Origin: Deltaproteobacteria bacterium
Lineage (GTDB): Bacteria; CG2-30-53-67
Direction of reading: 5' to 3'
Assembly (NCBI GenBank): GCA_013151235.1
Contig: JAADIO010000054.1
Coordinates: forward strand, 1-9,639
Length of the DNA stretch: 9,639 nt
The translations under genes and the position numbers were made by a program. The number at the start of each line of letters is the position of its first letter. Position 1 is the first letter of the stretch. Below the pieces are notes generated by a model, which was not told where the DNA came from, did no database searches, and saw only the letters and a program-made list of their open reading frames with translations. Below, piece by piece: positions 477 through 9,639 of this stretch.

Positions 477-1625
477 ATGAAAACCTTTGCCATTGTAAAT
501 CAAAAAGGAGGCTGCGGAAAGACAACAACATCCATCAACCTTGCCGCCGGCCTGGCGGATCGGGGAAAGAAAGTCCTGCTCGTCGACATGGACCCTCAAT
601 CCCACGCCTCCCTGGGACTCAACATCACGGTCGGCGAACTTGATCTGGGATTATATGATGTTCTCCTCGCCGTCGGGGAAGAGGACGGCCCACGGCTGGA
701 TGATATCGTTGCTCCAGTCGTCAAGAACCTTGACCTGGTTCCTTCGAACATTATTCTTTCCGCTTTTGAGCAGAAAATGGCCGGTACTGCAGGCCGCGAG
801 ACCCGACTGCTTGAGGCCATCAATGCCATGGAAGGAGAGTATGACTATCTCCTCATCGATTGTCCTCCATCCGTGGGGCTTCTCTCTTTCAACGCTCTCA
901 TGGCCGTTCATCACGTCATTATCCCCATTGAGCCAAGCTTCTTTTCACTTCACGGACTCGGCAAACAGATTGAATCAATTCGGATATTCACGGAAAAACT
1001 GAATCACTTCATTGAGATCCATACGCTCGTCACAATGTTCGATCGGCGGACCCGACTTTCCCGTGAAGTCCTGGAAGAGGTGCAAAAGCACTTCGGCAAA
1101 CAGCTTTTTCAGACCGTTATCCATAACAACATCCGCCTCAAAGAGGCAGCCGGCTACGGCTCCCCCATCTGTAAATTTGATCGCCACTGTACCGGATTCC
1201 ATGATTTTCAGGCCCTTGCCGAAGAAGTGTCTCTGCTCAAGGCCGTTGAGGTTCAGGTACAACCGGTGGAAACACTGGGGCCCCGGCCGGTACGCAACGG
1301 GATTCTCTTTTCCCTGGATGCACCGAACGTAAAATCCCTGAAGTTAGTGGGGGACTTCAACAACTGGACACCGGACAAAAATTCGGAACTGGAAAAGGGA
1401 GAGGCCGGAAGGTGGGAAAAAACTCTGTCCCTGCCGCCCGGGAGATACCATTATAAATTTATCGCCGACGGCGAGTGGCGGGAAGATTCCGGCAATCCCA
1501 ACTACATCATCAACGATTTCGGCGGGATCGATTCCGTCGTGGAGGTCAAGCCGATAGAGTTCCCCGAACTGATGCAGCAGGACCGGTCCCTGGGCATGGA
1601 AGCGGACCAGCAGGAAGCGAGTTGA
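477..1625 (+). CDS. ParA/Soj-type ATPase fused to a CBM48 (AMPK-type glycogen-binding) domain
   Basis: The first ~255 residues are a ParA-family Walker-type ATPase, a class that dimerises on ATP, often binds DNA non-specifically and moves or spaces cargo. The deviant Walker A is intact (QKGGCGKTTT, 9-18, with signature Lys10 and Lys15), as are Walker A' (LLVDMDPQ, 34-41) and Walker B (LLIDCPPS, 125-132). Residues about 274-357 form a separate beta-sandwich-type domain resembling the AMPK beta-subunit carbohydrate-binding module: VGDFNNW (291-297), YHYKF (324-328) and DGEW (331-334). Trp297, Lys327 and Trp334 line up with the main sugar-contacting residues of AMPK beta; its Asn appears as Asp352. 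At 382 residues it is about 120 longer than plain Soj/ParA. The start is set by AAAGGAG six bases upstream of the ATG. It leads an operon with a degenerate ParA-like gene. ATPase and CBM assignments are firm; binding of glycogen is inferred. Confidence 0.93.
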   Translation: MKTFAIVNQKGGCGKTTTSINLAAGLADRGKKVLLVDMDPQSHASLGLNITVGELDLGLYDVLLAVGEEDGPRLDDIVAPVVKNLDLVPSNIILSAFEQKMAGTAGRETRLLEAINAMEGEYDYLLIDCPPSVGLLSFNALMAVHHVIIPIEPSFFSLHGLGKQIESIRIFTEKLNHFIEIHTLVTMFDRRTRLSREVLEEVQKHFGKQLFQTVIHNNIRLKEAAGYGSPICKFDRHCTGFHDFQALAEEVSLLKAVEVQVQPVETLGPRPVRNGILFSLDAPNVKSLKLVGDFNNWTPDKNSELEKGEAGRWEKTLSLPPGRYHYKFIADGEWREDSGNPNYIINDFGGIDSVVEVKPIEFPELMQQDRSLGMEADQQEAS

Positions 1626-1677: not shown

Positions 1678-2544
1678 ATGAAAACGAAGAGCTTGGGACG
1701 GGGAATGGAAGAGATTTCCCATATCTTTCTCTCTTCGGAACCGGCGACAGTTTCACGTAAAAAATCACAGGAAACCCGAAAGATCGAAAAGCCGGCCGCT
1801 GACAATTCCCTCCGAATGACCCCGTCGATCGGAATCACCGGAAGCACCGATCGATGGATCGGGACCTTTGCCCTCGTCAACATTTCCATTGAACTCGCCC
1901 GGCAGGGATACCGGGTCCTGGTGATCGACGAGGACCCCGGCCCCCTCAATGTAATGCGCTCCATGGGATTGATCGATGTAGAAAACCCCGGCGAAATGAT
2001 TCTGCACAATGCCCCCATGGGAGTACGCATCGCCTACCGAACCCCTTTCCTCAACGACCTGGCGCTCTATAGTCGGCTTACCCGGGACGAAAAGAACTTT
2101 TCCTGGCCGGAACGTTACCGGCGGTTTGATTTTATCCTGTCCCATCTCCCGCAACGAAATTACGAAGATTTCGGTCCTTTCCTGCGCCGGACCTCTCTTT
2201 GTATCGCGATCGGTTCCACGGAACCCGAGGGAATGCTTCAAACCTATGCCGCAATTAAGGGCCTGAACCAGGCGGCACGGCAGATGAACTTTGGCCTCAT
2301 CGTCTATGACTCGGTCGGCGTCATTCCCCCCGAAGAGGCATTTATAAAGATGGCCCGGAATGTTCGCAGGTTTCTTCACAAGGATCTCATAAGCTATTCC
2401 TTTATCCGGGACGACGCGGAAATTGCGGAATCGATGGAAACCGGTATGCCTCTCTCCCTGCAATCTCCGTCCTCCGAAGTGCGCCGTCAGTTATTCAGCA
2501 TTGCCGGACTGATCATCGACGACTATGACAAGAAAACATCATGA
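1678..2544 (+). CDS. Degenerate ParA/MinD-like protein with ParB-like N-terminal LGRGM motif
   Basis: This 288-residue protein keeps the outline of a ParA/MinD fold but not its active site. The loop where Walker A should be (about 53-68, ITGSTDRWIGTF in its core) has no lysine, while the following helix and Walker A'-like strand (VLVIDEDPG, 80-88) are well kept. The Walker B position reads FILSHLP (152-158), so the usual Asp is gone. It is therefore probably a pseudo-ATPase. The N-terminus (KSLGRGMEEI, 3-12) resembles the LGRGL box at the start of ParB, the region that stimulates ParA ATPase in that family; about 30 polar, probably disordered residues join it to the fold. A purine-rich GAGGGGGG site precedes the ATG, 52 bases after the ParA-CBM48 stop, and the stop overlaps the next gene. 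I infer a partner or regulator of the upstream ATPase. Confidence 0.8.
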   Translation: MKTKSLGRGMEEISHIFLSSEPATVSRKKSQETRKIEKPAADNSLRMTPSIGITGSTDRWIGTFALVNISIELARQGYRVLVIDEDPGPLNVMRSMGLIDVENPGEMILHNAPMGVRIAYRTPFLNDLALYSRLTRDEKNFSWPERYRRFDFILSHLPQRNYEDFGPFLRRTSLCIAIGSTEPEGMLQTYAAIKGLNQAARQMNFGLIVYDSVGVIPPEEAFIKMARNVRRFLHKDLISYSFIRDDAEIAESMETGMPLSLQSPSSEVRRQLFSIAGLIIDDYDKKTS

Positions 2545-3107
2545 CCTTCAGAACCGTACCGTTGCAGAACAAAAAGAAATTAATCGAGCTGATTCGCACT
2601 TCCAGTTCTCTGCTGGAAGAAGGGATGGAAATTATTGACAGCGATATCGGCTCGGAAGAAATTCCCCTGATCGACCTGGTCGCCCGAAGGAGGAGCGGTG
2701 AGGCGCTCCTGATCCATACCGGAGTTACCGCGGATGAAAAAGCATTTCTCCACGCCGCCGCCCAATCGGCATGGTTTCAGTCAAATCATACGCTCCTGAG
2801 AAGAATCTATCCCGAGTTGACGCTGGACAATCAGGTTCCCCCAAGGGCTGCCCTGATCTACCCGGAATTTCCTCATCTGATGAAGAGATTTGTCAGGGCA
2901 GCCCCCCCCTCCTTTGCTCCCATGCTTTTCCGGTACCGCTGTCTCGTCTCGGAGGATACACAATTTCTTTATCTGGAGCGGTTCGACAAACCTCGGGAGC
3001 AGATGCGCCTTTCCGAGGAGGACGCTTCGCTCCCCCCCTTTCGAACCGGAATCGCGGGAAAGGACGTGATGCTCAGCCCTGAAGAGAGGGAGGCATTCTT
3101 CTCCTGA
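2541..3107 (+). CDS. Uncharacterised 188-residue protein, third gene of the ParA-CBM48 operon
   Basis: I do not recognise this family. The ATG overlaps the previous stop (ATGA), so translation is probably coupled and the protein likely acts with the two ParA-like proteins. It has no signal peptide or membrane segment and should be cytoplasmic. An N-terminal helix (10-30) leads into IPLIDLVARRRSGEALLIHT (41-60), which has the rhythm of the core beta-hairpin of PD-(D/E)XK nuclease-like folds, with Asp45 in the expected place but the ExK pair replaced by IHT. That would make it a nuclease-fold protein without activity, which is only a guess. The rest is mixed alpha/beta, with proline-rich stretches (99-111, 121-127), ending in an acidic tail. 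A terminator follows about 50 bases downstream, closing the operon. Confidence 0.75.
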   Translation: MTFRTVPLQNKKKLIELIRTSSSLLEEGMEIIDSDIGSEEIPLIDLVARRRSGEALLIHTGVTADEKAFLHAAAQSAWFQSNHTLLRRIYPELTLDNQVPPRAALIYPEFPHLMKRFVRAAPPSFAPMLFRYRCLVSEDTQFLYLERFDKPREQMRLSEEDASLPPFRTGIAGKDVMLSPEEREAFFS

Positions 3108-5461: not shown

Positions 5462-6823
5462 ATGCAACTCAAGTCGAATCTGAAACTCAAATATTGTCCC
5501 ATGCTGGACAGTTTTATCAAGATCCGTGAGTTTTCCCAGGAGGAAATCGACATCTTTTCCAACCATACAGACATCCGGGATAAGCGATCTTATCAGGACC
5601 TGGTCATCCGGGAGACCATACCGGATTTCAATGAAAAAATCCTGAAACTGATCCACAACGACGGAGAGATCGGCTTCGACATGGAAGGAGCAATTGATGA
5701 ACTCTACCGGATGTGCATCAAGGTCAACCCCGCCCTGAATATCTATAATATCAGCATTCCCGTACAGGAAGGGGGGACCCCTCAGCTCCACCTGCAGCCG
5801 GGAAGGAAGCGGGACGTAAGAAACCGGATCCAGGAGATTCGGGGGTTGGAAGAAACGTTAAAACGGCGAATCATCGGACAGGATGAAGCCATTCGTCGAA
5901 TCGTTCAATCCATTCAGAGTGCGAAGATCGGAATCAAGGACCCCCACCGGCCTGTCGGCTGTTTTATCTTCGCCGGACAGACGGGGGTAGGTAAGACCGA
6001 ACTGGCCAAGGCCGTCGCGGAGTGTCTCGTGGGGAGCGAAAAGGAGATGATTCGCGTCGACTGCTCCGAGTTCTCGCAACCCCATGAATACGCGAAGTTG
6101 ATCGGGGCACCTCCGGGGTACGTCGGGTATGAAGATGGAGGCAGCCTGACCACACCACTCCTGAAGAATCCCGAAAACGTCGTCCTCTTCGATGAAATTG
6201 AGAAGGCCAACAGCAAGCTTCACAACCTGCTGCTCCAGATCATGGACGAAGGGGACCTCACCGACAACAAAGGAAGGAAGATCCCTTTTCATGATGCCGT
6301 GGTAATTCTGACGACGAATGTCGGTGTCGAAGGGTTGGACGCGATGAAAAACGCCGTCGGTTTTACAAAGGAAGAACAGCCCGGACGGAAGATCGTCGAA
6401 CGGGAAACCCTGAAGGCACTGGAGAAGACCTTCCGGCCGGAATTTCTCAACCGCATCGATGAAATCATCTGTTTTCGTCCACTCGGGACCGAAAGTATCC
6501 GCAAGATCGTCAGGCTCTTGTTGTCCCGTCTGAAGAAAAATCTTTCGCAAATGAAAATTTCCATCCGTTTCACACAGGGAGTCATCGACTTCATCAGCCG
6601 GGAAGGGATGGATCCGCGCTACGGTGCCCGTCCGTTACAGCGGGCAATCAAACAATATATTGAAGTCCCCCTGACGGAACGGATCCTCCATGCAAAAGAG
6701 GAATTCCCCATGAAGGTCGTAGCAAGGATTTCAGGCCGCCGGATTGTTTTTGTGGCGGATCGAACTCTCCCGGCAAACCGTGGGAACCATCGGATTCAGA
6801 CCCTCTACCAGGAGACGGGATGA
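5462..6823 (+). CDS. Single-AAA+ Clp/Hsp100 ATPase, ClpC-D2-like, with unknown N-terminal domain
   Basis: An AAA+ unfoldase like the second ATPase ring (D2) of ClpA/ClpB/ClpC, but with only one AAA+ module in 453 residues; ClpA, ClpB and ClpC have two in about 750 to 860. Visible motifs are the IIGQDEAI entry motif (137-144), Walker A GQTGVGKT (172-179), pore loop GYVGY (219-223), Walker B VLFDEIE (241-247), sensor 1 TTN (284-286), arginine-finger box FRPEFLNRID (324-333) and sensor 2 GARPLQRAI (388-396). All key ATPase residues are present. VGF (299-301) sits where ClpA has IGL and ClpC has VGF for docking on ClpP, so it may feed a protease. Residues 1-125 match no Clp N-domain I know and may choose substrates. 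GGGAGGGAGG precedes the start. The gene diverges from CIRCE-controlled groESL and overlaps a pseudopilin gene. It is too short for ClpB and lacks the ClpX zinc finger. Confidence 0.92.
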   Translation: MQLKSNLKLKYCPMLDSFIKIREFSQEEIDIFSNHTDIRDKRSYQDLVIRETIPDFNEKILKLIHNDGEIGFDMEGAIDELYRMCIKVNPALNIYNISIPVQEGGTPQLHLQPGRKRDVRNRIQEIRGLEETLKRRIIGQDEAIRRIVQSIQSAKIGIKDPHRPVGCFIFAGQTGVGKTELAKAVAECLVGSEKEMIRVDCSEFSQPHEYAKLIGAPPGYVGYEDGGSLTTPLLKNPENVVLFDEIEKANSKLHNLLLQIMDEGDLTDNKGRKIPFHDAVVILTTNVGVEGLDAMKNAVGFTKEEQPGRKIVERETLKALEKTFRPEFLNRIDEIICFRPLGTESIRKIVRLLLSRLKKNLSQMKISIRFTQGVIDFISREGMDPRYGARPLQRAIKQYIEVPLTERILHAKEEFPMKVVARISGRRIVFVADRTLPANRGNHRIQTLYQETG

Positions 6824-7587
6824 ACTTTCCTTTCCTTGCATCAATAAAGAGTTTCCGCCGCCGGAGCAGGAAAGGTCCGACGACAACAGCCGGATTTTCC
6901 CTGATCGAAATCGTCATCGTCATCGCCGTCCTCTCGATTCTTGCAGGAATGATGGTCCCGATGTCGGTCCATCTTATCGACCAGAGAAATGTGGAATCCA
7001 CAAAAAAGGAAATGAGCGAGATCAAGGACGGGTTGCTGCACTACTATGAAGATGTCTCTCCGAGTGCCTTTCCGGCGAATCTGGCAGACCTGGTCACCGC
7101 CCCCTTCGGGATCACCGGATGGAATGGCCCCTATTTCTCGGGATCCGCCTCCGAGGTACAGACCGACGCATGGGGGAACAACTACACCTACCGGGAATCC
7201 GGGAACTACGCCATCGTCATCAGCGGGGGGAATGACAAGAGTGTCGACTCCGGCTCCTACGACAATTTCCCTCCTTCCGACAGTCCGGCCGACAATTCCG
7301 ACCTCGTCGTCAACGTGAACGGCAATCTCATCGCCGACAAGCTCAATGAGGAAAAGATCGAGGAGACGAAAGAGATCCTGAAGCTGGTCGCGGGAGATAT
7401 CTACAACACGAACCCCACGACGGCGCCGACATCCTACACCCCAAGCCTTTCCGATGCCTGGGGAAACACCATTCAGTACAACCGGATCAGCAACTACTCC
7501 GTCAAGATTTACAGCTACGGGCTTGACGGCGTGGACGATTCCGGAAGCAGCGACGACATCTACTACTCCCTGATCTGGACTCCCTGA
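6820..7587 (+). CDS. Type II secretion-like pseudopilin with duplicated GspG-type domain
   Basis: The N-terminus is a class III prepilin leader: 25 residues, very basic (SFRRRSRK), then the peptidase site AG/FSLIE with the required Glu five residues into the mature protein, and a hydrophobic helix (26-47). Prepilin peptidase should cleave before Phe26, and the product would sit in the inner membrane and assemble into a pilus-like fibre. The periplasmic part seems to hold two GspG-type units, each a helix, a DAWGN turn (116-120 and 212-216) and an Asp/Gly/Ser-rich loop (137-148 and 234-246) like the calcium loop of GspG. GspG has one. It is 255 residues against about 140 for GspG. ATGA overlap with the Clp ATPase gene implies coupled translation. 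No other secretion or pilus genes are in the window, so its machine must be encoded elsewhere. It could equally be called a type IV pilin-like protein. Confidence 0.87.
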   Translation: MNFPFLASIKSFRRRSRKGPTTTAGFSLIEIVIVIAVLSILAGMMVPMSVHLIDQRNVESTKKEMSEIKDGLLHYYEDVSPSAFPANLADLVTAPFGITGWNGPYFSGSASEVQTDAWGNNYTYRESGNYAIVISGGNDKSVDSGSYDNFPPSDSPADNSDLVVNVNGNLIADKLNEEKIEETKEILKLVAGDIYNTNPTTAPTSYTPSLSDAWGNTIQYNRISNYSVKIYSYGLDGVDDSGSSDDIYYSLIWTP

Positions 7588-9223: not shown

Positions 9224-9277
<54 letters not shown>

Positions 9278-9299
<22 letters not shown>

Positions 9300-9368
9300 T
9301 TTTTCTTTTGCAACGATGTTGCGAAAGAAAAAGCCGCGGCACAGCCCGAAGGGCGAAGCCGGGCGGAA
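9278..9368 (+). repeat. Direct repeat, copy 1: tRNA-Ala 3' end plus flank
   Basis: 91 bases identical to 9549-9639. This copy starts in the T-loop of the intact tRNA, covers its 3' end and CCA, then a 15-bp hairpin (9300-9314 with 9318-9332, loop GAT, one G-U pair) and a GC-rich part with the small hairpin GCCC-GAA-GGGC. It stops just before the terminator stem at 9369. Confidence 0.95.
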
Positions 9369-9548: not shown

Positions 9549-9639
9549 TCGATCCCGATCAGCTCCACCATTTTTCTTTTGCAACGATGTTGCGAAAGAA
9601 AAAGCCGCGGCACAGCCCGAAGGGCGAAGCCGGGCGGAA
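9549..9639 (+). repeat. Direct repeat, copy 2: tRNA-Ala 3' fragment plus flank, cut by window edge
   Basis: Identical over 91 bases to 9278-9368, offset 271. It begins with the last 22 bases of the tRNA (9549-9570, including CCA) without the 5' part, so it is not a working tRNA. The identity runs to the last base of the window and may continue beyond it. Candidate explanations are an integrase attachment site, a tandem duplication, or a sequence-assembly effect. Confidence 0.93.

Follow-up and report, generated by a model that had tools for sequence, protein, structure and literature searches.

A ParA-type ATPase joined to an AMPK-beta-type carbohydrate-binding module and encoded beside a MinD-fold partner: a candidate glucan-linked positioning module

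The locus described here raises the question of what a ParA-type ATPase that carries a putative glucan-binding domain of its own might position, or report on, and with which partners it would act. Chromosomes, carboxysomes, chemoreceptor arrays and polyester granules all have known positioning systems. Glycogen goes unmentioned in a 2025 review on how bacterial organelles are positioned (PMC13052382), and no description of a ParA-CBM fusion was found in the open-licence literature. The DNA analysed (hereafter the window) is one whole contig of 9,639 bp (G000:C54) from a genome of 2.62 Mb (G000), and its named near relatives (L017-L019) are MAGs such as 'Nitrospirae bacterium' ES_M_CG2-30-53-67. 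The features of the locus, with the evidence for each in brackets, are as follows.

477-1241, + strand: ParA-type deviant-Walker ATPase domain, aa 1-255, with NQKGGCGKTT, D37/D39 and R220 (AAA_31, 8ray, residue conservation)
1290-1562, + strand: AMPK-beta-type CBM48, about aa 272-362, Pfam match aa 287-359 (PF16561, PDB AMPK beta1 CBM, conservation)
1365-1367, 1455-1457 and 1476-1478, + strand: CBM ligand residues W297, K327 and W334, to which D352, the N150 equivalent, is added (alignment with AMPK beta1)
1563-1625, + strand: short tail after the CBM, missing from most distant homologues (alignments)
1678-2544, + strand: partner, a MinD/FlhG-fold protein with a degenerate P-loop, GITGSTDRWIGTF (CbiA, hhalign, AF2, 4rz3 FlhG)
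1690-1734, + strand: ParB-like ParA-activating motif SLGRGMEEISHIFLS, in the disordered N-terminus of the partner (regex, ParB comparison, pLDDT)
2541-3107, + strand: third gene, NucS/EndoMS-type PD-(D/E)XK fold with the catalytic ExK missing, overlapping the stop codon of the partner (AF2, 2vld, profile)

The open reading frame at 477-1625 (+) encodes a protein of 382 aa, with AAAGGAGC before its ATG start. AAA_31 matched residues 1-181 above the Pfam cut-off (E 6e-51), and the best solved relative of the ATPase was the ParA of M. xanthus (8ray, E 4.5e-51). The deviant Walker A signature lysine and the catalytic aspartate were retained throughout, i.e., K10, K15, D37 and D39 were present in 28/28 fused homologues, and R220, the equivalent of the non-specific DNA-binding arginine R238 of M. 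xanthus, was R or K in 23/28. In M. xanthus ParA, Y81 and E82 are required for ParB stimulation. These two positions correspond to Y60 and D61 of the window protein and were kept as Y in 21 and as D or E in 24 of the 28 copies, and two of the four acidic ParB contacts of the M. xanthus protein, D110 and E117, were not kept in the fusions. Such a pattern, with Y60/D61 kept and D110/E117 lost, would fit a partner-specific ParA interface. A partner-stimulated ParA cycle is likely at the fusion locus.

AMPK-type CBMs are alpha-glucan binders. The C-terminal part of the fused protein matched AMPK1_CBM (PF16561) over residues 287-359 at 43.5 bits (cut-off 26.8) and also CBM_48 (PF02922), with the weaker score of 28.2 bits (cut-off 22.4), and when this piece alone was searched against the PDB the AMPK beta CBM chains ranked first (E 1.5e-8). 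W297, W334 and K327 align with W100, W133 and K126 of AMPK beta1. The first tryptophan was found in 28/28 fused copies and the second in 27/28, the K126 position was occupied by K (16) or R (12) in all of them, and the N150 position by N (16) or D (9) in 25/28, the window having D352. In AMPK beta the sugar contacts are made by the same CBM ligand residues (PMC4032982, PMC2642990), glycogen binding is reduced in W100, K126 and W133 mutants (PMC2642990), and N150 is likewise called critical (PMC4032982). No other protein of G000 matched either AMPK1_CBM or CBM_48. These results bear out the preliminary description on two points, namely that a complete ParA ATPase with intact Walker motifs and an AMPK-beta-type module share one reading frame, and that the module retains its two key tryptophans and Lys327. 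A second copy in G141 (L127) is a divergent ParA-CBM that has no partner gene and a Gln in place of one ligand Trp.

The same description had proposed a joint search for both domains to learn how often and where the fusion occurs. With a profile built from an alignment of eight fused proteins and a sample of 386 genomes, spread over families and not a census, the fusion proved recurrent: the full ParA-CBM protein was found in 26/386 genomes, as 28 copies in 15 families and at least three phyla, and one more, in G003, was cut by a contig end and is counted beyond the 26. Fusions scored at least 360 bits, whereas plain ParA proteins scored at most 292; CBM-free relatives in G093 and G233 reached 361-365 bits, but their matches stopped at profile position 259. 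A join of ParA and CBM by chance or misassembly was ruled out because full-length homologues occur in many genomes, in other families and phyla. In two small phyla the fusion is core, being present in every well-assembled genome (3/3 genomes in the phylum of G031; 18/20 in that of G346, with 13/13 of the well-assembled ones and a single copy in each).

A candidate fusion from Phycisphaerales (L054) was rejected, since it gave a long match, yet contained plain ParA frames only. The possibility of a plasmid or phage partition gene was also discarded, as no fused copy was found among plasmids or phages: the fused query yielded 10 plasmid records at 80% query cover, a total for which the individual records were not listed, a second fused query yielded no record with 80% cover, and a plasmid search with the CBM only returned four records, none annotated as ParA. 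The family of G093 and G233 (f88) has the same ParA type and the partner, and the CBM is absent; at their loci (L139 and L138) the LGRGLAEVSNVF partner is kept and a short unrelated tail replaces the CBM. In a tree of the ParA parts, whose deep forks are poorly supported, the CBM label changes twice, which would agree with a single gain and a single loss of the CBM, the latter being that in G093/G233.

The partner gene starts about 50 nt 3′ of the ParA-CBM gene and is overlapped by the third gene, and this three-gene order was kept in the family (L017, L018, L019 and L086) and the class (L085) of the window. In the earlier framing of a lone ATPase the fusion stood, but the solitary gene did not: the ParA-CBM gene shares a conserved operon with two others, and the locus would be a ParA-type positioning module of two to three genes. 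The partner has 288 aa. CbiA matched it just below its cut-off (E 1.8e-5), hhalign related it to the ParA-CBM alignment (E 3.5e-8), and its AF2 model (pLDDT 80.7, with a disordered N-terminus at pLDDT < 50) resembled FlhG (4rz3; Z 24.9, rmsd 2.6, 221 aa). ParB/Srx CTPase and HTH domains were not found in it, the matches being confined to MinD/ParA-type profiles and the FlhG fold. Its Walker A is not intact (GITGSTDRWIGTF), and across the loci the P-loop was intact only in L128, L129 and L131, partial in L126, and lost in the family of the window and in others. In L087, L119 and L120 the body of the partner is an unrelated Cys-containing protein, and the N-terminal motif is retained.

This motif is what links the partner to known ParA activators. 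At the sequence level the ParA-activating motif is present, with the core LGRGMEEISHIFLS, and the N-terminus as a whole (MKTKSLGRGMEEISHIFLSSEP) resembles the start of the chromosomal ParB of the same genome (MSRKVLGKGLSALIPDKP, L003). A regular expression covering the motif's second half was found in 22/380 predicted genes over all the loci, 20 of these 22 being the gene directly 3′ of ParA, a contrast that is descriptive because the expression is loose and was shaped on these same sequences. The motif lies in the gene immediately downstream at about 20/28 fusion loci, and a recognisable partner was absent from five, two of which are the second copies in G141 and G235. Since the body of the partner changes while the motif stays, we argue that the N-terminal peptide would be its functional link to ParA. 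ParB N-terminal peptides activate ParA by themselves (PMC12462528), and ParA partner proteins generally work via charged disordered N-termini (PMC10241942). The suggestion that the ATPase might read its cargo directly, with no adaptor, finds no support in these loci: in most of them an adjacent partner carries a ParB-like activating N-terminus, so that the ATPase retains an adaptor.

The third gene encodes 188 aa, and its AF2 model (pLDDT 79.3) superimposed on the nuclease domain of NucS (2vld) with Z 13.5 and rmsd 2.0 over 107 aa. Independently of the model, a profile search placed EndoMS on top with a marginal E of 0.0073. The catalytic ExK was missing from all 14 third-gene homologues, and an ordinary nuclease was ruled out because of this; the dead NucS-fold protein is probably an extra binding platform, for DNA or for the partner. 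GroEL and GroES follow the three genes on the opposite strand. Beside groESL, and kept there in the family, lies a gene (5462-6823, +) for an AAA+ protein of the single-ring, ClpA/ClpB D2-like type, whose N-terminal region (about 120 aa) is distinct and which matches ClpB D2 far under the equivalog cut-offs. It is overlapped by a GspG-like pseudopilin gene (6820-7587, +) that was found in L017 and not at the same place in L018, L019 and L086. An exact 91-nt direct repeat occupies 9278-9368 and 9549-9639, its first copy starting within a tRNA-Ala gene (9224-9299), and the contig probably ends where it does because of this repeat.

The preliminary description had also made its glycogen link depend on host genomes with polyglucan metabolism. 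Polyglucan genes were present in 26/26 fusion genomes, so that the refuting case of fusions in genomes lacking this metabolism was not encountered: GH57 was found in 26/26, GT5 in 25/26 (the match in G271 is weak and G124 has none), compared with 302/386 of all sampled genomes, and phosphorylase in 23/26, compared with 257/386. The support that this lends is weak, since genomes lacking the fusion carry such genes nearly as often, and no association is claimed because the background is high and the genomes are related. Signatures of glycogen synthase, phosphorylase and GH57 were looked for in the fusion neighbourhoods by a crude motif scan and were not found in any of them. Upstream of the fusion in L087, L119 and L120, all from one distant phylum, a GH38-like glycosidase and a rhomboid-like gene were recognised by eye.

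The reading that we prefer, with a probability of roughly 45%, is that of a ParA-type positioning (or occupancy-sensing) module in which the ATPase bears a glucan-binding tether, polyglucan (glycogen) being a plausible cargo or signal. ATP-bound ParA dimers would bind the nucleoid via the conserved basic site, the CBM would attach the ATPase and polyglucan to each other, and the N-terminus of the partner would dock at the ParA dimer interface, leading to ATP hydrolysis and release. Through repeated cycles of this kind polyglucan particles could become spread along the nucleoid and be shared between daughters; alternatively, polyglucan occupancy may gate the ATPase cycle. Against this reading count the missing glycogen-enzyme signatures around the fusions, the high background of polyglucan genes, the two lost ParB contacts and the five loci with no recognisable partner, and also the CBM-free G093 and G233, in which the partner is kept and the module can presumably work without a CBM. 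With ParABS this module would share the ATPase family, with all the catalytic motifs present, and a partner N-terminus like the ParA-binding motif of ParB (LGRGMEEI versus LGKGLSALI of the ParB from the same genome), but the partner is MinD-like and has no ParB/Srx or HTH match, the ATPase has a CBM, Soj and ParB are encoded as a pair elsewhere in the genome (L003), and no fused copy was found on plasmids or phages. The McdAB carboxysome system likewise combines a ParA-type ATPase and an adjacent partner whose N-terminus is charged and disordered, whereas here the partner has a predicted MinD/FlhG fold and it is the ATPase that bears the putative tether to the cargo. The CBM of AMPK beta (CBM48), which among solved structures matches the C-terminal domain best, shares its tryptophans and lysine, but belongs to a kinase complex and not to a ParA ATPase, and its N150 is D in the window. 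The predicted partner fold matches FlhG/FleN (Z 24.9) with the P-loop lost, and that of the third gene NucS/EndoMS (Z 13.5) with the nuclease ExK lost. PhaM, PhaF and PhaH of polyester granules couple storage-granule and nucleoid binding in one protein (PMC13052382), but have no ParA homology.

Three other explanations were weighed against this one. The CBM could report the abundance of polyglucan to the ATPase, i.e., the module could be a sensor of stored carbon with a regulatory rather than a positional output, for example if the FlhG/FleN-fold partner targets a transcription factor or the division or motility machinery. AMPK, in which glycogen inhibits the kinase allosterically via the CBM (PMC2642990), is a precedent, the fold of the partner is nearest that of FlhG/FleN, a protein that binds FleQ, an NtrC-family regulator (structure titles), and in the family of the window the gene directly upstream is that of an NtrC-like response regulator (454 aa, identified by eye); however, this neighbour was not seen at loci outside that family, and no output gene common to the fusion loci was found, and we regard a sensor as unlikely. 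A protein-protein interaction or dimerisation module with the CBM fold, binding no sugar and serving a protein or DNA cargo, would agree with the partner retained in G093/G233, with neighbour genes that never indicate glycogen and with the DNA-enzyme fold of the third gene. The fold alone would not require the ligand residues, and their conservation over 28 divergent copies, with near-invariant tryptophans and with K or R where AMPK has K126, therefore counts against this role, which appears improbable.

By analogy with BcsQ and cellulose secretion, the CBM might instead bind a secreted or lipid-linked glycan intermediate, with the ATPase positioning an export or assembly machine. Several distant loci do adjoin envelope polysaccharide genes, as recognised by eye (WecA-like and GT4 in L088; WbpM-like and WecA-like in L130; DegT/PMT-type in L136 and L137; PMT-type in L134; a sugar epimerase in L125). 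Nevertheless, such genes are common, they are absent beside the fusion in the window and at most other loci of its family, and AMPK-type CBMs bind alpha-glucan, which the ligand residues fit; a surface-polysaccharide role is the least probable of the three.

Within the preferred reading of a positioning module, its fullest form is possible, if doubtful: a dedicated system for the positioning and inheritance of polyglucan granules, which would be without precedent both for glycogen and in having a ParA ATPase that holds the cargo polymer directly. Its ParB-like activator would be a decayed MinD and its third component a dead NucS-fold protein, and the gene set would be core in several phyla. 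A ParA with its own glucan-binding domain makes the partitioning or sensing of glycogen by ParA directly testable. In addition, the partner family, in which a ParA-activating peptide appears to be carried by a paralogue of the ATPase fold that is itself decaying, may inform how new adaptors originate.
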